Shown here: positions 8,076-43,380 of the stretch, piece by piece
How positions within the stretch are numbered: the first letter of the stretch is position 1
Layout: each line of letters opens with the position of its first letter
Translations under genes and position numbers: made by a program
The notes under the pieces: generated by a model
Database searches by the model: none
Told to the model about the DNA's origin: nothing
The model's input: only the letters and a program-made list of their open reading frames with translations
Assembly (NCBI GenBank): GCA_902826615.1
Contig: CADEFN010000001.1
Coordinates: 930,001 to 994,000 of the forward strand
From: an uncultured Gemmatimonadota bacterium
Lineage (GTDB): Bacteria; Gemmatimonadota; Gemmatimonadetes; Gemmatimonadales; Gemmatimonadaceae
Direction of reading: 5' to 3'
Length of the DNA stretch: 64,000 bases

Positions 8076-9233
8076 TCAGCCCGCCTTCCACACCTCGCCG
8101 AGGAGTCGCATCCAGTTGCCACCGATCACCTTCTCGATGCGAGCGGAGGAGTGTCCCGCCTTGGCCATGGCGTCGGCGACCTGCTCCATGCGGCGCGGGG
8201 TGTTGAAGTCGGGCACATAGTTGAAGACGTTTTCGTCTTCCCCCGGTGCGGAAATACCCTGGGCACGTCGTTCCTTCACAAAGCCCGCATGCATCGCGCG
8301 GAATTCGGGAGTGAGGCTGAGCGGAGTGATCGACAAGTCACTCCCGATGCCCACGTGGTCTTCGCCGCAGGTGTTGAGGCAATGATTGAGATGTCGCATG
8401 AAGTCACCGGAATCGGGCTGCCCCTCCGCCTTGAGAAAGGGCATCATGTACACGCCAACGACCCCGCCCTTGTTCGCCAGCTTCTTGAGCACATCGTCAG
8501 GTTTGTTGCGCGGCACATTGACCACGGCTGCGGCGCCGGAGTGCGTGGCGGCCACGGGCACGGTGGAGGCGTCGATGGTCTGGCGCGTCGTCTCCCAGCC
8601 GACATGACTCAGGTCGACCAGCGCGCCTAACGCGTTGAGCCTGGCCACCACCTCGCGGCCATACGGCTTGAGCCCGCGGTCGTTCGGCACCAGGCAGCCA
8701 TCCCCCACCAGATTGGCGCCATTGTAGGTGAGTTGCACAATGCGCACGCCCAGCCGGTGGAAGGTGTCGACACGATCCAGTTTGTCCCAGTACGGGGTGG
8801 TATCCTGAAAGCCGAAGATCGCGCCGACCTTGCGTTGCGCCTTCGCCGTGCGGATGTCGGCCACGCTGCGAATGGGCATGAAGACATCGGGGTGCCGGTC
8901 GAATTCCAGATGCCAGGCCGCGATGTTCTTGACCGTTTGCTCCAGAATCTCGGCCGGGGTGCTCCCGAAGCCATGCACGGTGGAGTTGACCGCAGTGATG
9001 CCCGAGCGCCGGGCGTTCGCCACCATCTCGTCGGTGAGCGGCTTGCCCAGCCAATCGGCGACGTTGAACGGCCCGGCGGTGGCGAGCATGTCGAGCACAA
9101 AGGCGTGCTCGTAGCCCGGCCAGGCCGATTCGGGTGCCGCGGCAACTGTTGGCAGCCAGTCCCGGTTGTGCGAAACGAGCGGGAGGGCCATGGCGCTGGC
9201 AGCAGCCTGGCGGGCAAAATCGCGACGGTTCAT
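8076..9233 (-). CDS. Membrane dipeptidase-like protein (peptidase M19), Tat-exported
   Basis: A 385-residue protein. The N terminus MNRRDFARQAAASAMALPLV is a twin-arginine-type signal. The M19 fold is seen in DLSHVGWETTRQTIDAS, VAATHSGAAAVVNVPRN and DHVGIGSDLS, which carry the second-site His, third His and Asp. The first-site HxD of classical renal dipeptidase is replaced by VLDMLATAG, and the bridging Glu position reads GFQDTTPYW (Gln). The active site is therefore divergent, although similar variants exist as an M19 subfamily. The longer upstream frame lacks family similarity, so the ATG at 9233 is used. Confidence 0.85.
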   Translation of the reverse strand: MNRRDFARQAAASAMALPLVSHNRDWLPTVAAAPESAWPGYEHAFVLDMLATAGPFNVADWLGKPLTDEMVANARRSGITAVNSTVHGFGSTPAEILEQTVKNIAAWHLEFDRHPDVFMPIRSVADIRTAKAQRKVGAIFGFQDTTPYWDKLDRVDTFHRLGVRIVQLTYNGANLVGDGCLVPNDRGLKPYGREVVARLNALGALVDLSHVGWETTRQTIDASTVPVAATHSGAAAVVNVPRNKPDDVLKKLANKGGVVGVYMMPFLKAEGQPDSGDFMRHLNHCLNTCGEDHVGIGSDLSITPLSLTPEFRAMHAGFVKERRAQGISAPGEDENVFNYVPDFNTPRRMEQVADAMAKAGHSSARIEKVIGGNWMRLLGEVWKAG

Positions 9234-9368
9234 GGAGTATGGTGCAAGGGAACTGCAACGATGGACCTGGTCGCGCCGGGCGGCAAGCGATTGCGCGTCG
9301 ACAGTGCCTGGCGCACCTTCGGTCGGGCCGTCTACCGTCTCAGCTCCCCAACCCTTCTCCATCCGTCC

Positions 9369-9572
9369 ATGGAATGGCGCATCATCGGTTCGAATTTTCT
9401 CTACGCCACGCTTGGTGTCGGGCTCATGTTCCTGGCGTTTCGGGTGATCGACTGGCTCACACCCCAGGTGAACTTCAATGAGGAACTGAGGCGGGGTAAC
9501 GTGGCAGTGGCCATCTTTGTAGCCGCGTTGTTTCTCTCCATTGCCCTCATCGTGGGCCAGTCGCTCAACTGA
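9369..9572 (+). CDS. Small DUF350 family membrane protein
   Basis: A 67-residue protein with two membrane helices: NFLYATLGVGLMFLAFRVIDWL and VAVAIFVAALFLSIALIVGQSL, with the connecting segment TPQVNFNEELRRGN typical of DUF350 proteins. Function is unknown for the family. The reading frame is open far upstream, but the ATG at 9369 gives the usual one-repeat DUF350 size. The lytic transglycosylase starts 4 nt after its stop, so the two are likely cotranscribed. Confidence 0.8.
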   Translation: MEWRIIGSNFLYATLGVGLMFLAFRVIDWLTPQVNFNEELRRGNVAVAIFVAALFLSIALIVGQSLN

Positions 9573-9575
9573 CAG

Positions 9576-10169
9576 ATGCGCCGCATCGTCGCCTGCCTGA
9601 CGCTGGTACTCAGCATCCCCCTGCAGGCCCAGGATCGGGAGCGTCTACGCCGCAAGGTGCCCGACTACGACGAGATCTTTCACAAGTACAGCAAGCGGTT
9701 CTTTGGCCCGGGTTTCGACTGGAAGTTGTTCAAGGCGCAGGGGATCGCCGAGAGCAATCTCGACGCGGTGGCACGCAGCCGTGTCGGAGCACGTGGGGTC
9801 ATGCAGCTGATGCCCTCCACGGCCCGCGCCATCAGGTCCGACAACGAAGACCTCAAGTGGGTCGAGGATCCCGAGATGAATATCGCCGCCGGGATCCAGT
9901 ACGACCGCACGTTATGGCTCTTGTGGGAGGCTGACTCGGTGCACGCGAGCCGGAGCGAATTCATGTTCGGCAGCTACAACGCCGGGCGCCGCACCATTCT
10001 CAGGGCGCAGGGGTTCGCCCGCCGCTCAAAGCTGGACCATCGGAGCTGGGAGAGCATTCGCAAGGTTGCGTCGCGAGTGCCGCGCTGGCGGCACGGGGAA
10101 ACGCTCGGGTATATCGAGCGAATCGGTGAGGCGCGGCGCGAGATGGATGTGAAGAAGCCCGGGAGATAA
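9576..10169 (+). CDS. Secreted lytic transglycosylase (SLT domain)
   Basis: A 197-residue exported peptidoglycan lyase. The signal peptide MRRIVACLTLVLSIPLQAQ precedes an SLT/lysozyme-like domain: KAQGIAESNLDAVARSRVGARGVMQLMPSTAR, where the Glu of AESNLD is the expected catalytic acid. Further family features are GIQYDRTLWLLW and FGSYNAGRRTILRAQ. It cleaves the MurNAc-GlcNAc bond forming 1,6-anhydro ends. It probably shares a transcript with the DUF350 gene. Confidence 0.9.
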   Translation: MRRIVACLTLVLSIPLQAQDRERLRRKVPDYDEIFHKYSKRFFGPGFDWKLFKAQGIAESNLDAVARSRVGARGVMQLMPSTARAIRSDNEDLKWVEDPEMNIAAGIQYDRTLWLLWEADSVHASRSEFMFGSYNAGRRTILRAQGFARRSKLDHRSWESIRKVASRVPRWRHGETLGYIERIGEARREMDVKKPGR

Positions 10170-10321
10170 CACGCCCTCGGGAGCGCGAACGCCCCAGCCC
10201 GCGCGGACCGTCCTACCATGGACAGTCTCCGGCTTTGTTTGGAGGTGGCGCGGTCGGTATCCGGTGAATATCGACCGTCGCTAAGTTTCGCCCTCTGTAC
10301 CCCCCACCCGCACCCCGCATC

Positions 10322-11998
<1,677 letters not shown>

Positions 11999-31922: not shown

Positions 31923-33590
31923 CTAACGATTGGGATGACTGATCCTGGTGAGCGCCGCCCAGAAGCGTGGGTGGTGGCAGGCCAGTCGGGCGAAGCGACG
32001 TTCCTGCGGCGCGCCCTTGGCCTGCACCAGTGCCCAGAGTGCGGCGCGTTCGGCAGAGGTCCAGTGCGCGATGTCGCTCGCGATCAGGTCGATCACTGGC
32101 CCGAGGAGCCGAAAGCCGCGTTGCTCGCGAGGGCGTAGCGAGCGCCGCGATCCGGTGAGTGTGGTGAGCCAGTGCCGGCCGCGTGCGGTGAGCCACGCAT
32201 CCCGCCCGGCACCAGATGTGTGGTTGAGATGACGGGCGACCAGGAGCCCGAGATTGACCAGGTTCCGCTCGGCGAAGAGTGGTGTGGTCGCGCCGGGAAG
32301 CTCGAGAATCAGATCATCCCGGGCCAGGCGTTTGAGGGAACGGAGTGAGGTGCGATGCTGCGGCGTGCGCGCAAGGTGTTGCCGTTCACGAGCCGCCAAC
32401 GCACCCCCTTCGGCGCTGGCCGCACGAAAACCCAGACGGTCATACAACCAGTAGGCACCCGAGGCGAGGGCTTCGTCGTTCCCTGCTCCAAACTGGTAGG
32501 GGTTCACCACAAAGCGATGGATCCCGAACAACGTGTGAAACGTCTGCAGCGCGCGCGCAAAGAGCCACGGTGCCTCGCTCTGCCTGAAGGCGTCGAAGAG
32601 GTTGATCCCCGTGTTGGCCTGACCAGCGAGTGGTGTCACGCCTCCATACCCCACGGGCACACCACCGGCAAACAAGACGTAGCCGTAATTGGCCTCCAGG
32701 GCCAGACGATGATGGTGGTCCGCTCCAACAATCAGCAGGGCGGTCTGTTCCCCAAGGTCAGCGAGGTAGAGCTCACCCAGGTTGGGGTACATCGTCGGCG
32801 TGACCTCGCGGCAGCGAGCCAGCAGCGCCGCGCGCGCCGCATCGAGCCACCCGATGGCGGTGTCGCCGCGAAGCCTGGTGATACGAGGTGCGGGCGTTTC
32901 GAGCAGGTCGGCCACATGAGGTGGTGGGCGGCGGAAGGGAGCGCTACTGATGTCAGGCGCAACCGGTGCCCGATTGCGCGTCACCGACCATGGCGAGTTG
33001 TGCAACTCCCACGACACCACCGGCTCGGCGCTGCTCCAGGCCGTTTCCAGTTGGGCACTCGATCCGCTCAGCAGCCAGGAGAGTGGGGTTGATGTGTGTC
33101 CGCTGGCACGCGCGACCCACGACTTTGTGGAAAGGCCGCTGTCGTCAAAGGCGTCGTCTTCGGCGGGGAGTAGGTGATGGCGAATGAGCGGTTCGAGCTG
33201 CTCCCATGTCGACTCTGTGTCGGGGTGGAGGGCGATGGCCTCTTCATGATCAGCCAGCCAGCGTGTGCTCCCGAACATGAAAGTGTGCGAGGACCTGGTC
33301 CCCGCGAGCCCCGTGTCGCGCAGCCGGTGTCGCTGAGCGGAGGGGAGTTGCTGTACCGCCCGGTAGGTGCGGCCGATCAGGCGCGTTGCCTTTCGTGCGA
33401 GGGAAGGCGTTTTGGGGAATGCGATGAGGAAGAGCAGCTCGTGGTGTGCGTCCAGGAGGGTGCGCGCTGACTGCAGTGGCGATTGGGCGAGGGCGCTGAG
33501 GAGCTCAGCGGTGCGGCAGATGGCCTGGGGCGAGAAGTCGCGCCGGAGCGAATGGAGCTCTGTGATGATCGACCGGAGGGGAATTGGCAC
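31923..33590 (-). CDS. Conserved-looking protein of unknown function with a GNAT-like C-terminal region
   Basis: A 555-residue protein that I cannot name. The N-terminal third is helical (HELLFLIAFPKTPSLARKATRLIG). Residues about 300-410 read like a GNAT-type fold: YGYVLFAGGVPVGYGGVTPLAGQANTGINLFDAFRQSEAPWLFARALQTFHTLFGIHRFVVNPYQFGAGNDEALASGAYWLYDRLGFRA. No signal peptide or membrane helix is seen. The stop TAG lies in a GCCTAACG octamer (31921-31928), 8 nt from the convergent amidohydrolase stop. Confidence 0.7.
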   Translation of the reverse strand: MPIPLRSIITELHSLRRDFSPQAICRTAELLSALAQSPLQSARTLLDAHHELLFLIAFPKTPSLARKATRLIGRTYRAVQQLPSAQRHRLRDTGLAGTRSSHTFMFGSTRWLADHEEAIALHPDTESTWEQLEPLIRHHLLPAEDDAFDDSGLSTKSWVARASGHTSTPLSWLLSGSSAQLETAWSSAEPVVSWELHNSPWSVTRNRAPVAPDISSAPFRRPPPHVADLLETPAPRITRLRGDTAIGWLDAARAALLARCREVTPTMYPNLGELYLADLGEQTALLIVGADHHHRLALEANYGYVLFAGGVPVGYGGVTPLAGQANTGINLFDAFRQSEAPWLFARALQTFHTLFGIHRFVVNPYQFGAGNDEALASGAYWLYDRLGFRAASAEGGALAARERQHLARTPQHRTSLRSLKRLARDDLILELPGATTPLFAERNLVNLGLLVARHLNHTSGAGRDAWLTARGRHWLTTLTGSRRSLRPREQRGFRLLGPVIDLIASDIAHWTSAERAALWALVQAKGAPQERRFARLACHHPRFWAALTRISHPNR

Positions 33591-37165: not shown

Positions 37166-37200
37166 CGCTGTAACGGCCCTGCGTCTCGCTCGTTACAGCG
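37166..37200. promoter_or_regulatory. 10-bp inverted repeat upstream of the lipase-CHAT operon
   Basis: CGCTGTAACG and CGTTACAGCG are perfect inverted arms of 10 bp with a 15-nt spacer. They start directly after the oxyR stop and end 80 nt before the lipase start. No T-tract follows, so it could be an operator for the downstream operon or a factor-dependent end of the oxyR transcript. Confidence 0.55.
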
Positions 37201-37280: not shown

Positions 37281-38699
37281 TTGCCATCCGCATTCTCGGA
37301 GCCCTCGGTGCCTTCTGCATTTGGTGACGTCGTCATTCTGCTTCCCGGAATTACCGGGAGCGTGCTCGCCCGCAATGGGAAAGACGTGTGGGCGCCGTCT
37401 GCTGGCGGCATTTTCCGGGCGGTGTTCAGTCTGGGCGGATCCATCAAGGACCTCGAGCTCACCGCCGATGACGCCGACGATGGTGTCACGGCGCCGCGTC
37501 TGATCGGAGACATCACGGTCATACCGGGCCTCATCAAGATCGACGGCTACACGAAGGTTGCCGACTATCTGGTAGAGCAACTGCAGCTCACCCGCGGTGA
37601 GAACTTCTTCGAGTTTCCCTACGATTGGCGTCGCGACAACCGCATCAGTGCTCGCCAGCTTGAAAGCAAGGCGATGGATTGGCTGCAGAAGTGGCGCAAG
37701 AGTTCCGGGAATGCCAACGCCAAGCTGATTCTGCTCGGTCACTCGATGGGTGGCCTGGTATCTCGCTACTTCCTGGAGAACCTGGGCGGGTGGCAGCACA
37801 CACGTACGCTCGTGACCTTCGGGACGCCGCACCGGGGGTCGCTCAACGCCGTCGACTTCCTGGTGAACGGCATGAAGAAAGGCGCGGGCCCCTTCAAGCT
37901 CGACATCACACCGTTGTTGCGTTCGCTCACGTCGGTGTACCAGCTCCTGCCCATCTACCGCTGCGTCGATCTGGGAGGCGCGAAGGACGAGTACATCGCG
38001 GCAGCCGCGACTCAGGGACACCTCGCAGGGGTTGACCCCAAACGCGCAGCAGCTGCACGCGCCTTTCATCAGGAAATCGAAGACGCGCAAAAGGCCAATG
38101 CAGCCGACGCGCGCTATCGCGAGCAGGGGTATCGCATGGTACCCATGGTGGGGATCGATCAACCCACGCTGCAGTCGGCGCGAGTCCGCAGTGGCGTGGT
38201 GGAGTTGCTGCGCTCCCTTGGAGGCAGCGACGACGCCGGCGACGGCACCGTGCCTCGTGTCTCGGCAACCCCCGTCGAGCTGAGTGACGCCGAGGACGAG
38301 GTGTATGCCGCAGAGAAACACGGGTCGCTGCAAAACACCGATGGATTGCTGCAGAACGTGAAGGGAGTCCTCACCCGCCCGAGCTCCGACCGGCTCCGGG
38401 ATCTGCGTTCCAGCGCGTTAGGTGTGTCGGTTGCGCTGGACGTTGAAGACGCATTCGATGCCGGAGAGCCGGTGGTTGTTCGCGCGAAACCTCTGGAAGG
38501 CGCCCCGGCTCTGCGCGTCAGCCTCGTGAATGTGGCCACAGGGGAATCCGTCGTCAGCACTGATCCACTGGGTCGCGGGAGCGAGGGCTGGCAGGTGGGC
38601 GAATACGATCTTCCGCCAGGTGCGTATCGTGTCACGGTCGAGGGTGCAGGAAAGGTGACCCCGGTCCACGATCTCTTTCTGGTGCACGAAAAGGCATGA
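37281..38699 (+). CDS. LCAT-like alpha/beta-hydrolase (predicted lipase/acyltransferase), partner of the CHAT protease
   Basis: A 472-residue cytoplasmic-looking protein of the lecithin:cholesterol acyltransferase/PGAP1-like lipase group. It starts with the typical strand VVILLPGITGSVLAR (oxyanion-loop region), has FEFPYDWRRDNR, and carries the nucleophile Ser155 in LILLGHSMGGLVSRYFLE. The acid is probably the Asp in AGDGTVPRVSATP and the His in AAEKHGSLQNTD. Residues about 375-472 form a separate beta-sandwich-like domain (VSVALDVEDAFDAGEPVVVRAK ... GAYRVTVEGAGKV). There is no signal peptide. The start is TTG 37281 or GTG 37308. Its stop overlaps the CHAT gene start (ATGA at 38696-38699), so the two are made together. 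Confidence 0.85.
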   Translation: MPSAFSEPSVPSAFGDVVILLPGITGSVLARNGKDVWAPSAGGIFRAVFSLGGSIKDLELTADDADDGVTAPRLIGDITVIPGLIKIDGYTKVADYLVEQLQLTRGENFFEFPYDWRRDNRISARQLESKAMDWLQKWRKSSGNANAKLILLGHSMGGLVSRYFLENLGGWQHTRTLVTFGTPHRGSLNAVDFLVNGMKKGAGPFKLDITPLLRSLTSVYQLLPIYRCVDLGGAKDEYIAAAATQGHLAGVDPKRAAAARAFHQEIEDAQKANAADARYREQGYRMVPMVGIDQPTLQSARVRSGVVELLRSLGGSDDAGDGTVPRVSATPVELSDAEDEVYAAEKHGSLQNTDGLLQNVKGVLTRPSSDRLRDLRSSALGVSVALDVEDAFDAGEPVVVRAKPLEGAPALRVSLVNVATGESVVSTDPLGRGSEGWQVGEYDLPPGAYRVTVEGAGKVTPVHDLFLVHEKA

Positions 38700-40990
38700 G
38701 TGCCCTGCTTCGTGGTCTCCGCTGGATGCGCGACGTCTATGAGATCGCGGGAGACGTGCCCGCGATTGTAGCGCTCACGGAGCTCGCTGGATCGTCGGCC
38801 ACATGGGTGGTGGTGCGGCTCGGCGCCCATCGCTGGGTGCTTCGACGTCGCGAGGTTGTGCGGCTGCTCGACACCGACGCCGTGGTGAGTGGCGGAGGGT
38901 GGCGTGGCCTCAAGGTGCAAAAAGCACTCAACCTTTCAGTGAAGGGCACGAGCACCACCACTCCATCGCCCACCATCCTCTCCACTCCGTCTTCTGGCAG
39001 CATGGCTTTTGCCTATCCGCCGGCAAGACGATACGTACACGTCGGGGCCAAGGGAGAGGCCATCGGTGTCGTAGAGCTTACGCCCCAGGCACTCACACGC
39101 GCGGGCCTGCTCGAGCGACCGCTCAAGAAAGGTCGCGGCAGCGTACGAAAGGCGTCGCGCCCTCCCGTAAAAAAGGCGCGCCCTCCAGCAAAAAAGGCGC
39201 GCCTCCCGTTGAGAATGGCGCGCCCTCCCGTAAAGAGGGCCGCGCCGCCGGCCGCCTCAGAGCCAATGGACTTTGAACCCGTCTCGGGTGCTGAGCCGGA
39301 CGAAGCGGCGCCCCCAATGGCAGCTGCTCCAGCACCAGACGAGACTGCGGCTCCGGCTCCACCTCCAGTCATGCGAGGCATGCCGGACGCCCCTCCGCCA
39401 CCGCCGCCTCGGGCGCGCGGCATTCCGGCGATGCCTCGCGGAGTACCGAAGAACGGGCACTCGGCGGAAAGCGCGCCGCCGGCCTCGCCCATGCCTGACG
39501 ATGACGAAGGGACAAATCCACGCCGCTTCCCGTCGTTGGAGTCCGACACGCCACCAGTCCGTGGCCAGCGTATCACCATCACGGTGGATCTCGCGCGTCA
39601 GCAGACGACGCATACCGCTGGCGGCGCACTCGACGTAGGTGAACTTGCGGCCGACTGGAGCACGCTCACCATCGACGCGCGTCTCATGTCGTCGGGGATC
39701 ACGTTCGACGGCGGCGGGCAGGGCCAGGTCACCATACGACGCAACCAGGACTCGATCGCCGCCATGGTCAGCGGCACGGTTACCGTAGATGGTCCAATTG
39801 ATGTTGCTGCTTCATTCATGTGCGGCAGCCGCTTCGTCGGTATGGCGACACGCCGTTTCGAGACCAGTGCGTCTGCCGCTGCGACGCCTGTGACGGTTGG
39901 TGTGGTATCGGTGGACGTTCAGGCGGCACAGCCTGACGTGACCGTGGAGATCTACGTCGAAGATCAGGGTCAGCCAGGCAAGCTGCATTGGGTGGTTCGT
40001 CCACGAGAGCTGTTTGATGGGCTGCCGCCACAGCTCGACGGATACGCCAACCTTGGTACCGGCGTGGCGGAGTTTGCCGGCGCGATGTTCGTGAAGTTCG
40101 CGCAGCTCGAGCGGGGCCAGCACGCCGGGAAAATCGAAAGCCATGGCGACGAGCTCTGGCGCAAGGCGCCGGCCTGCTGGCAGGAGTCTTACTGGGCACT
40201 GGTCGACCACTATCAACGGCCCCTCACTATCCAGTTTGTCACCGATGAGCCCTCGATTGCCTGGGAGCTCATGCGCCCCTCTCGGCGATCAGGGAGCAAG
40301 ACTGAGACGCATAAGCCACTCGCGCTCGAACATTCCGTGGCGCGGTGGGTCGCTGCGCTCAAGGGGATGATGCGGAACCGGCTGCCCAAAGGTCGGCTCT
40401 ACACCATCGTGCCCCGATACAAGAGTGCCTCTCGAGCCCTCAAACGCGCCGAGGCCGAAGGCGAGAAGCTGAAGACCGACTACTCAGCGCAGGTGGTTGA
40501 GGGGAAGTATCAGAATGTTCTGTCGTTGCTGCGGGCCAGCGATCTCACCGAGCCAATTGCCCTCCTGCACTTTGCGGGGCACGGCAAGTTCGACGCTGGC
40601 GCGGTCACGGAATCGGCCATTCTTCTGGAAGATGGAGAGGTGACGGTCTCAGAGCTGGCGAGCCCGGACGTACATCTCGGCGAGAAGTACCGGCCGCTGG
40701 TCTTCTTCAATGCGTGTGAGGTGGGGGCAACCGGGCAGGTGCTGGGCGCGGTCGGCGGGTGGGGGCGCGCCTGCATCGAACGCAGCTTCAGCGGCTTTAT
40801 CGCGCCGCTCTGGGCGGTGGATGATGAGGATGCCGGCACCGTGGCAGCAGAACTGTTGAAGGGGATTTTGGTCGATCACACTCAGCCCGTGAGTTCGGTG
40901 CTGCGCGAGATCCGTCGTACACATGGCCCCACGTCACCCACGTTCTACTCGTATGTGTTTTTTGGTGACGTAACGGCGCGGATCGCCTGA
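38696..40990 (+). CDS. CHAT-domain (caspase-like) protease with N-terminal sensor-like regions
   Basis: A 764-residue protein. The C-terminal CHAT peptidase domain (about residues 560-764) has the catalytic His629 in ALLHFAGHGKFD and Cys674 in LVFFNACEVGATGQ, followed by GFIAPLWAVDDEDAGTVAAELLKG. Residues 1-140 form an unrecognised domain, 142-290 a Lys/Pro/Ala-rich low-complexity linker with four 7-residue repeats, 285-400 a beta-sandwich-like region (RITITVDLARQQTTHT), and 400-560 a pre-CHAT region. CHAT proteases in bacteria act in conflict and programmed-death systems and cleave partner proteins. The coupled upstream lipase is the obvious candidate partner. No gasdermin, STAND NTPase or CRISPR gene is adjacent. 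Confidence 0.9.
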   Translation: MSALLRGLRWMRDVYEIAGDVPAIVALTELAGSSATWVVVRLGAHRWVLRRREVVRLLDTDAVVSGGGWRGLKVQKALNLSVKGTSTTTPSPTILSTPSSGSMAFAYPPARRYVHVGAKGEAIGVVELTPQALTRAGLLERPLKKGRGSVRKASRPPVKKARPPAKKARLPLRMARPPVKRAAPPAASEPMDFEPVSGAEPDEAAPPMAAAPAPDETAAPAPPPVMRGMPDAPPPPPPRARGIPAMPRGVPKNGHSAESAPPASPMPDDDEGTNPRRFPSLESDTPPVRGQRITITVDLARQQTTHTAGGALDVGELAADWSTLTIDARLMSSGITFDGGGQGQVTIRRNQDSIAAMVSGTVTVDGPIDVAASFMCGSRFVGMATRRFETSASAAATPVTVGVVSVDVQAAQPDVTVEIYVEDQGQPGKLHWVVRPRELFDGLPPQLDGYANLGTGVAEFAGAMFVKFAQLERGQHAGKIESHGDELWRKAPACWQESYWALVDHYQRPLTIQFVTDEPSIAWELMRPSRRSGSKTETHKPLALEHSVARWVAALKGMMRNRLPKGRLYTIVPRYKSASRALKRAEAEGEKLKTDYSAQVVEGKYQNVLSLLRASDLTEPIALLHFAGHGKFDAGAVTESAILLEDGEVTVSELASPDVHLGEKYRPLVFFNACEVGATGQVLGAVGGWGRACIERSFSGFIAPLWAVDDEDAGTVAAELLKGILVDHTQPVSSVLREIRRTHGPTSPTFYSYVFFGDVTARIA
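39158..39241 (+). repeat. Four 21-bp coding repeats in the CHAT gene linker
   Basis: Four consecutive 21-bp units encode RPPVKKA, RPPAKKA, RLPLRMA and RPPVKRA (residues 155-182). They form a flexible, strongly basic linker between the N-terminal domain and the beta-sandwich region. Confidence 0.85.
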
Positions 40991-42144: not shown

Positions 42145-43380
42145 CTAGGGACAGGCGCGCGAGCGGACCTGCGTCAACGTCACGGCGGCGTTGAGGCCAT
42201 TTGCCGCGTACTGGACGCCCCACAACAGCAGGGTGCGGCCGCGACCGATCCGGATGGCATAGGGCTGGTTCACCGCTACCCCGCTTTCGAGCACTTCAAG
42301 TCGGCGCCAACCGCTAACGCTCCCTTCGGCATGCTCCAACCCGGGACTGCCTGGGATGCTCGCATAGACGTGCAACGATCCCGAATCGTCCGCGTCGAAT
42401 GCGACATGGTAAGTACCGGGACGCGGCGTCCATGTTGAAGAAGGCAACCAGGTACGCCCGCCGTCCGTGGTCCACGCGGCCCTCACGAGTTTGGTCTCGT
42501 CGTCGGGACCCTGGAACGCCCAGGCGATAATCGCGCGCTGTTCCGAGAGCCCCAGCCACGTAAGGGTCGTCAAGCGGTCCTTTGGCACATGGGCAATGGT
42601 TTGTGCGGCACTCCAGACACCTGTTGATGCATCCAGTCGGCGCGTACTAATGGTGTCGACCTCCCGGCCCATGCCCAGCGTCGCAAGTATGAGGGGACCC
42701 GCACGGCCGAATCGACCGATTGCGGGAGAGCGCTGATTGCCAAGCTTCGTTCGCTGAACCTCTGGATGCACGCGACCGGGCCGAAGGATGCTGGTCTCGG
42801 AGCTCATCCCGATCATGGCGACCACGCTCTCCTCCGAGGCCTGAGCACCCGTGGAGACCCAAGGCCAGCGCCAGCGACTGAGGTCGTTCGCAGGAATCGC
42901 AACCGCCGGTCTTGTCCATGCGCCTCCGCTCCACTCGCTTTGCCAAATTGTGTCATCGGGAACGGAGTCTTTTCCCAGCGGTCGTTTGCGAAACAGCATC
43001 AGGGTCTTCCCCTCGGGTGAGGTGAAGAAGCGAGGCTGGTCCATAGTTGCGACGCCCGGTGGCATCCCGAGGTCTTGCACATCGACCGGTCTTCCGACGC
43101 TGGTGAGTCGCAGCCGGAGACCCGACGATACCACAACACCCGCCTGCTGGTGAAGTCGAGCCTCTGCGGGGAACGTGAAGGCCGGCATTCCGGCGATCAG
43201 CAGCTCCTCTCCAAGCCGGGTGGCGTCGATGGCTTCGACATAGGCGAGATGTCCATTCGCGGTCCGCAGCGTATCCAACCGGGACCACTGATATCGAGAG
43301 CAGCTCGCCTGACCCTCAACAGAACGGGCGAACGAGACCAGCAGTGAGATGTGCGAGAGCAAACAGATTGTACGTCTCAT
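42145..43380 (-). CDS. Secreted beta-propeller-like (BNR/sialidase-type) protein of unknown function
   Basis: A 411-residue exported protein (signal MRRTICLLSHISLLVSFARSVEGQ). Repeated strands such as VRAAWTTDGGRTWLPSSTWTP contain an Asp-box-like S/T-x-D-x-G-x-T-W motif, as found in BNR/sialidase propellers. Other blades are IWQSEWSGGAWTRPAVAI and WSAAQTIAHVPKDRLTTLTWLGLSEQRAIIAWAFQGPD. Catalytic sialidase residues cannot be identified, so it may be a binding propeller. No operon partner. Confidence 0.7.
   Translation of the reverse strand: MRRTICLLSHISLLVSFARSVEGQASCSRYQWSRLDTLRTANGHLAYVEAIDATRLGEELLIAGMPAFTFPAEARLHQQAGVVVSSGLRLRLTSVGRPVDVQDLGMPPGVATMDQPRFFTSPEGKTLMLFRKRPLGKDSVPDDTIWQSEWSGGAWTRPAVAIPANDLSRWRWPWVSTGAQASEESVVAMIGMSSETSILRPGRVHPEVQRTKLGNQRSPAIGRFGRAGPLILATLGMGREVDTISTRRLDASTGVWSAAQTIAHVPKDRLTTLTWLGLSEQRAIIAWAFQGPDDETKLVRAAWTTDGGRTWLPSSTWTPRPGTYHVAFDADDSGSLHVYASIPGSPGLEHAEGSVSGWRRLEVLESGVAVNQPYAIRIGRGRTLLLWGVQYAANGLNAAVTLTQVRSRACP

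Follow-up and report, generated by a model that had tools for sequence, protein, structure and literature searches.

A coupled lipase and CHAT protease gene pair in a Gemmatimonadaceae genome is a candidate two-gene protease-effector module

Bacterial gasdermin systems and the type III-E CRISPR Craspase/SAVED-CHAT systems keep a partner protein under the control of a caspase-like or CHAT protease, and gasdermins attack membranes. The phospholipases of CBASS, like other membrane-attacking effectors, are executors of abortive infection. In this study, we analyzed a pair of overlapping genes for an LCAT-type lipase and a CHAT peptidase located at positions 37281–40990 of a 64,000-nucleotide stretch of contig CADEFN010000001.1 from an uncultured Gemmatimonadaceae bacterium; the whole stretch is referred to here as the window, and coordinates follow its numbering. 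Two further groups of described systems are relevant to this locus. Wherever a caspase domain occurs in the VMAP ternary systems, a gene for an alpha/beta-hydrolase lies next to it, and the two products were proposed to cooperate (Kaur et al. 2020, PMC7159879). More recently, unrelated immune systems (Hachiman, AVAST, Lamassu and canu) were found to contain pro-nucleases that trypsin- or caspase-like proteases activate, and the authors called other proteolytically activated enzyme classes possible (Science 2025, PMC12799240).

The window pair resembles each of these groups in part. Like the nuclease-protease pairs, which have moved between immune systems, change their protease family and depend on cleavage to activate the enzyme, it comprises an effector gene and a protease gene; however, the effector of the former is an MBL-fold DNase, whereas here it is a phospholipase-like lipase. 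Of the two hallmarks of those pairs, the lipase family shows co-evolution with the protease, and an insert blocking the active site has so far not been seen. In comparison with gasdermins and Craspase, no gasdermin, Cas or SAVED component was seen, and the partner that overlaps the CHAT gene is an enzyme of the LCAT/lysosomal phospholipase A2 (LPLA2) fold. The likeness to CBASS lies in the phospholipase effector, but no cyclase or cyclic nucleotide pathway was seen near the pair and control would seemingly be exerted by the protease.

The similarity to the MoxR-vWA-VMAP systems is an alpha/beta-hydrolase gene beside a peptidase of the caspase superfamily, which the window has, and two relatives of the window lipase in Chloroflexota have more. 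One locus (L193, 9684–17941) encodes the lipase, a transglutaminase-like (TGL) VMAP-C protein, a MoxR-like AAA protein and a NACHT/FGE-sulfatase protein, and the other (L194, 1465–8124) encodes the lipase, a caspase-VMAP protein, a MoxR-like AAA protein and a TPR-alpha/beta-hydrolase protein. The VMAP-C match in a Chloroflexota relative locus had an E-value of 7e-22. In addition, the CHAT proteins of two relatives of the window pair (L041 and L099) bear TCAD7, the “ternary complex associated domain 7”, by Pfam. By contrast, the window protease is a stand-alone CHAT protein whose gene overlaps that of the lipase, and no MoxR, vWA or VMAP was seen beside the pair. Eight neighboring open reading frames (ORFs) scanned between 30.6 and 48.7 kb, some of which had no family at all, gave no AAA/MoxR or vWA match, and the window pair therefore falls outside the definition of a ternary system. 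The words lipase, CHAT and LCAT are not used by Kaur et al. 2020 (PMC7159879). The first-pass annotation of the window had not recognized the design as a described one. This was not upheld for the pairing of an alpha/beta-hydrolase with a caspase, which has been reported (PMC7159879); of the lipase-CHAT combination we found no description in the literature searched, papers beyond that search being possible. We class the window pair as a CHAT-based version, with two genes standing alone, of a kind of protease-effector pairing that is already known.

The lipase gene was called on the forward strand at 37281..38699 from a TTG start, from which its residues are counted here. Its product matched LCAT (PF02450) with an E-value of 3e-14, exceeding the curated Pfam cut-off, and the best fold matches of its AlphaFold model (mean pLDDT 68) were human lysosomal phospholipase A2 (4x92, E 2e-11) and LCAT (5txf). 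A GHSMGG motif from residue 153 places the nucleophile at Ser155 (codon 37743..37745), the catalytic acid is Asp321 within GDGTVP (38241..38243) and the catalytic histidine is His347 (38319..38321). All three were invariant across eight close relatives and were conserved in 72, 74 and 73, respectively, of the 74 lipases in a wider alignment. The protein is an LCAT/LPLA2-family alpha/beta hydrolase with an intact Ser-Asp-His triad. Past approximately residue 390 the model was all-beta and this part matched Ig-like domains by Foldseek, indicating an Ig-like beta-sandwich domain at approximately 38448..38696, with moderate model confidence. The chain starts nearly at the first beta strand, and inspection of the sequences revealed no hydrophobic signal peptide in either the lipase or the CHAT protein. 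Its family membership predicts an enzyme of the phospholipase A/acyltransferase type that acts in the cytoplasm.

The CHAT peptidase gene (38696..40990, forward strand, 764 aa) overlaps the lipase stop codon by ATGA (38696..38699), an arrangement in which translational coupling is expected. The match to CHAT (PF12770, E 1.3e-10) exceeded the Pfam cut-off, and within the domain (40439..40918) the motifs HFAGHG, from residue 625, and NACE, from residue 672, provide His629 (codon 40580–40582) and Cys674 (codon 40715–40717). These two residues were invariant in 17 of 17 CHAT domains compared, including four that are fused to a lipase, and the window protease is a CHAT peptidase with a His-Cys dyad. 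Its N-terminal region (38735..39070) showed weak similarity (E ~1e-3 in a one-target search) to the N-termini of the CHAT proteins at L041, L099 and L100; the window protein had no direct Pfam match to TCAD7, and a TCAD7 search of its own genome also gave none, with controls that were equally silent. A Pro/Ala-rich linker follows (39128..39545), starting with a basic Pro/Ala/Lys stretch and then becoming acidic, and leads into a beta-rich middle region (39548..40000) that is conserved with the CHAT proteins of plasmids. DUF7363 (PF24063) matched at this place weakly in the window protein (E 0.075) and with E-values of 2e-5 and 2e-8 in L041 and L099. The L099 protein also weakly matched the PADLOC SAVED_CHAT model. 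A CHAT protein of Kitasatospora (L042, 3590–5998) has a weak match to an M17 aminopeptidase N-terminal-like domain (E 3e-4), which may be a ligand-sensing part. By eye, the middle region of one fused lipase-CHAT protein (L037) resembles that domain.

Most of the first-pass description of the two genes, which had been made from the letters alone, was borne out by these analyses. Both ORFs and their overlap, the positions of Ser155, His629 and Cys674, the lack of signal peptides, the extra C-terminal beta-sandwich of the lipase, and the N-terminal domain and basic linker of the CHAT protein were all as it had proposed. The lipase ORF was also upheld, but its translation probably does not begin at the TTG of 37281. 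An in-frame GTG at 37308 has GGAG (37298–37301) 6 nt upstream, and the close relatives begin there with protein lengths that agree; because of this spacing and agreement we prefer GTG 37308 as the probable true start, in which case residue numbers would be 9 lower (Ser146).

The association of the lipase with a protease was examined in relatives gathered regardless of their neighbors, from named genome contigs (35), plasmid records (38) and whole-genome profile scans. Flanks were examined for 74 loci, comprising 60 newly taken regions and 14 named ones. In a first pass, profile hidden Markov models (HMMs) built from previously inspected loci (two caspase-STAND, three TGL and five CHAT) gave a partner signal for 45 of the 60 new regions; the caspase seed used here also took in part of the STAND ATPase. 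Once the partner genes had been inspected, the HMMs were rebuilt on the protease domains alone, and in this second pass 63 of the 74 lipase loci had a directly adjacent cysteine-protease gene: 40 caspase (mostly caspase-STAND), 12 TGL (TGL-STAND or VMAP) and 11 CHAT. Only three protease domains in ~659 kb of flanks were not adjacent to the lipase. The E-values of the rebuilt HMMs are not independent, because their training partly used these same neighbors; independent support came from the first pass, from the active-site His and Cys, which were invariant in 31/31 caspase and 12/12 TGL partners, and from Pfam matches of sampled partners (Peptidase_C14, CHAT, VMAP-C and the transglutaminase-like DUF553). 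These data indicate that the pairing of lipase and protease is not due to chance, and adjacency across phyla suggests a protease-triggered, membrane-attacking self-destruct or defense system. In the order of Kitasatospora, a lipase relative was identified in 69 of 373 genomes sampled (~18%), and large caspase-STAND and TGL-STAND repeat proteins adjoin the lipases (L155–L210). One locus (L199) encodes an apparent caspase-lipase fusion in which the nucleophile Ser is replaced by Gly.

The type of partner tracks the lipase tree. All 12 CHAT-partnered lipases, including that of the window, formed one clade (support 95/86), and partner type required 9 changes on the tree versus 31 when shuffled, or 2 with orphans left out, demonstrating co-inheritance. 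Within the phylum of the window this clade has three members (the window, L099 and L100), that is, three full-length copies in 395 genomes. The others are in an Ardenticatenales genome of the Chloroflexota (L041/L191), in five Actinomycetota genomes from the order of Kitasatospora (L151–L154 and Kitasatospora L042/L197, the latter in the gene order CHAT-lipase), and on conjugative plasmids of Bradyrhizobium, Rhizobium and Agrobacterium (L076, L077 and L079). Each of the three plasmid pairs is followed by a convergent IetS gene, and two of them by IetS with IetA, a known defense system by PADLOC. Transposition genes (TniQ/TniB) adjoin the copy of Rhizobium acidisoli, and AbiE toxin-antitoxin genes are close to that of Bradyrhizobium. 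The close lipase family is patchy in two groups, since nothing was found at a threshold of E 1e-40 either in 386 genomes from one phylum (around a Plectonema locus) or in 397 genomes from one order (around the Bradyrhizobium locus). A phage-borne origin was considered and rejected: no phage record matched, and the weak lipase relatives in IMG/VR numbered only three, with none for the single protein.

In four genomes the lipase and CHAT peptidase are fused within a single ORF (L037, 1201 aa; L046, L050 and L056). The lipase comes first, as in the window pair, and the nucleophile motif and the CHAT His and Cys are kept. Members of the CHAT subfamily also neighbor genes for other enzymes. On an Agrobacterium Ti plasmid a metallophosphoesterase gene overlaps a CHAT gene by ATGA (L088, 3593–6843), and another Agrobacterium plasmid has an MBL-fold protein, then CHAT, then IetS/IetA (L086, 4696–7893). 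The host genome of the window itself has a second CHAT gene (L039, 7006–9114; G000:C4, ~325.0–328.7 kb), followed 30 bp later by a gene (9145–10668) for a DUF7379 alpha/beta-hydrolase with the apparent nucleophile motif CHSRGG, and this is an independent second protease-hydrolase pair. Judged from these gene arrangements, both partners are exchangeable, with a logic of “hydrolytic enzyme plus protease” that stays constant.

Based on these findings, we propose that the pair constitutes an effector module of two components in which the CHAT protease controls a membrane-attacking lipase, most likely by cleavage, and thereby stops the infected cell; we assign this reading a probability of approximately 0.6. 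The cytoplasmic LPLA2/LCAT-like enzyme would be an effector against membrane phospholipids that is kept harmless until needed, and the co-translated CHAT protease would be its dedicated controller. The weakly TCAD7-like N-terminal region and the middle region of the CHAT protein would receive a signal of infection or stress, after which the CHAT domain would, most likely, cleave and activate the lipase, and the activated lipase would damage the cell membrane and halt the infected cell. The intact genes, the conserved pairing, the fusions, the co-inherited partner type and the mobile, partly defense-associated context are direct observations; from them we infer which lipids are attacked, that control runs from protease to lipase, that cleavage is the trigger, and that the outcome is cell death or phage defense. 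Parts of a sensor or switch type occur in the partner proteases: in Streptomyces these are repeat-bearing STAND ATPases, in Chloroflexota VMAP together with MoxR, and in several CHAT proteins TCAD7 and DUF7363, and exchange among CHAT, caspase-STAND and TGL partners fits a protease that controls the lipase. A more far-reaching version, which we put forward tentatively and rate slightly below even odds, is an immune system that stands alone and destroys the membrane through a cytoplasmic pro-phospholipase cut by a caspase-like protease. Such a system would be an enzymatic counterpart of gasdermin pyroptosis and the first lipid-attacking effector activated by proteolysis, with the same lipase family wired to CHAT, caspase-STAND, transglutaminase-STAND or MoxR-VMAP according to lineage.

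Several results weigh against the proposed module. The structure predicted for the CHAT protein was of unusable quality (pLDDT 37), neither protein matched a PADLOC (2023) or NCBIfam model, and 10 to 11 lipase relatives were without a recognized protease neighbor. Among the 11 other loci, L090 has a TPR-CHAT neighbor by Pfam, and on a Rhizobium phaseoli plasmid (L093, 5905–10265) a distant lipase relative is followed by a protein with the metallopeptidase motif HExxH and an MBL-fold protein, while L171, L174 and L192 are examples of true orphans. Furthermore, the lipase showed neither a cleavage site nor a gating insert, and landmark spacings were alike in partnered and orphan lipases; a cut ahead of the C-terminal domain, which the first-pass annotation had considered, is speculative. 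The missing insert keeps live an explanation that we nonetheless consider unlikely, in which a signal drives assembly of two parallel effectors, the protease cutting other proteins and the lipase attacking membranes uncleaved, with a STAND oligomer switching on both in the STAND-fused versions. Many partners are fused to STAND, so that oligomerization alone could activate them, and the fusions hold both enzymes in one chain. However, three cysteine-protease folds replace one another as partners, which suggests that what matters is the proteolysis, and the gasdermin and pro-nuclease precedents use partner cleavage (PMC12799240). The reverse relationship, in which the protease would hold the lipase in check or remove it by antitoxin-like proteolysis or turnover instead of activating it, strikes us as quite improbable. 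The tight translational coupling would suit toxin-antitoxin stoichiometry and the pairing data are silent on the direction of cleavage, but the large signaling-type proteases (STAND, VMAP and TCAD7 neighbors) resemble sensors, and orphan lipases persist without a protease, so the lipase is not obviously lethal when unrestrained.

The immediate surroundings of the window pair also count against the proposed module, as it adjoins katG and a LysR gene outside any recognized defense island. The lipase gene lies 116 bp downstream of the LysR gene on the same strand, with katG nearby, and the first-pass annotation had offered lipid turnover or an oxidative-stress response tied to these oxyR-like/katG neighbors as alternatives. 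A few Streptomyces orphan relatives near core metabolic genes are consistent with a housekeeping role. However, an inverted repeat, CGCTGTAACG...CGTTACAGCG, lies between the LysR stop codon and the lipase gene (37166..37200, forward strand); it was not picked up by a scan for T-run terminators and is possibly a terminator or operator that separates the pair from the LysR gene. The lipase was not found in four congeners searched, and the window segment at ~29.3–44.3 kb, which holds katG, LysR, the pair and ORFs without a family, is replaced in a congener by ~6 kb of other genes between conserved flanks. No katG or LysR homologue was present near the distinct related loci checked, all of which were from clades with CHAT or transglutaminase-like partners, the caspase-partnered Streptomycetales loci having been left out. 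Judged by these loci, the katG/LysR neighborhood is therefore local, an oxidative-stress link was rejected as a general explanation, and we regard housekeeping or oxidative-stress functions for this pair as very improbable. Neighbors brought together by chance, without shared function, might be argued from how rare the family is, in absolute terms, in the phylum, but this is refuted by the adjacency, the co-inheritance across phyla and the fusions, and its likelihood is negligible. Two ORFs in the same part of the window, both on the reverse strand, 42145–43380 (411 aa) and 31923–33590 (555 aa), had no Pfam or PADLOC match.

Together, these analyses partly support the interpretation of the pair as a conflict or cell-death system and considerably strengthen it. 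Homologues of the two genes do co-occur elsewhere, and both functional coupling and a conflict context, as had been suggested, are in keeping with where the pair recurs: it is present across several phyla and on conjugative plasmids, three copies adjoin IetS or IetAS, and some genomes encode it as a fusion. Those three plasmid pairs lie beside defense genes, and the window copy is in no recognized defense island.

The lipase family is a concrete candidate for the further class of proteolytically activated enzymes that was considered possible in 2025 (PMC12799240). It pairs with at least three cysteine-protease folds and is carried on conjugative plasmids, and its CHAT version has only two genes and is directly testable. 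If cleavage of the lipase proves true, it would link caspase-like signaling to phospholipase-driven cell death in bacteria.

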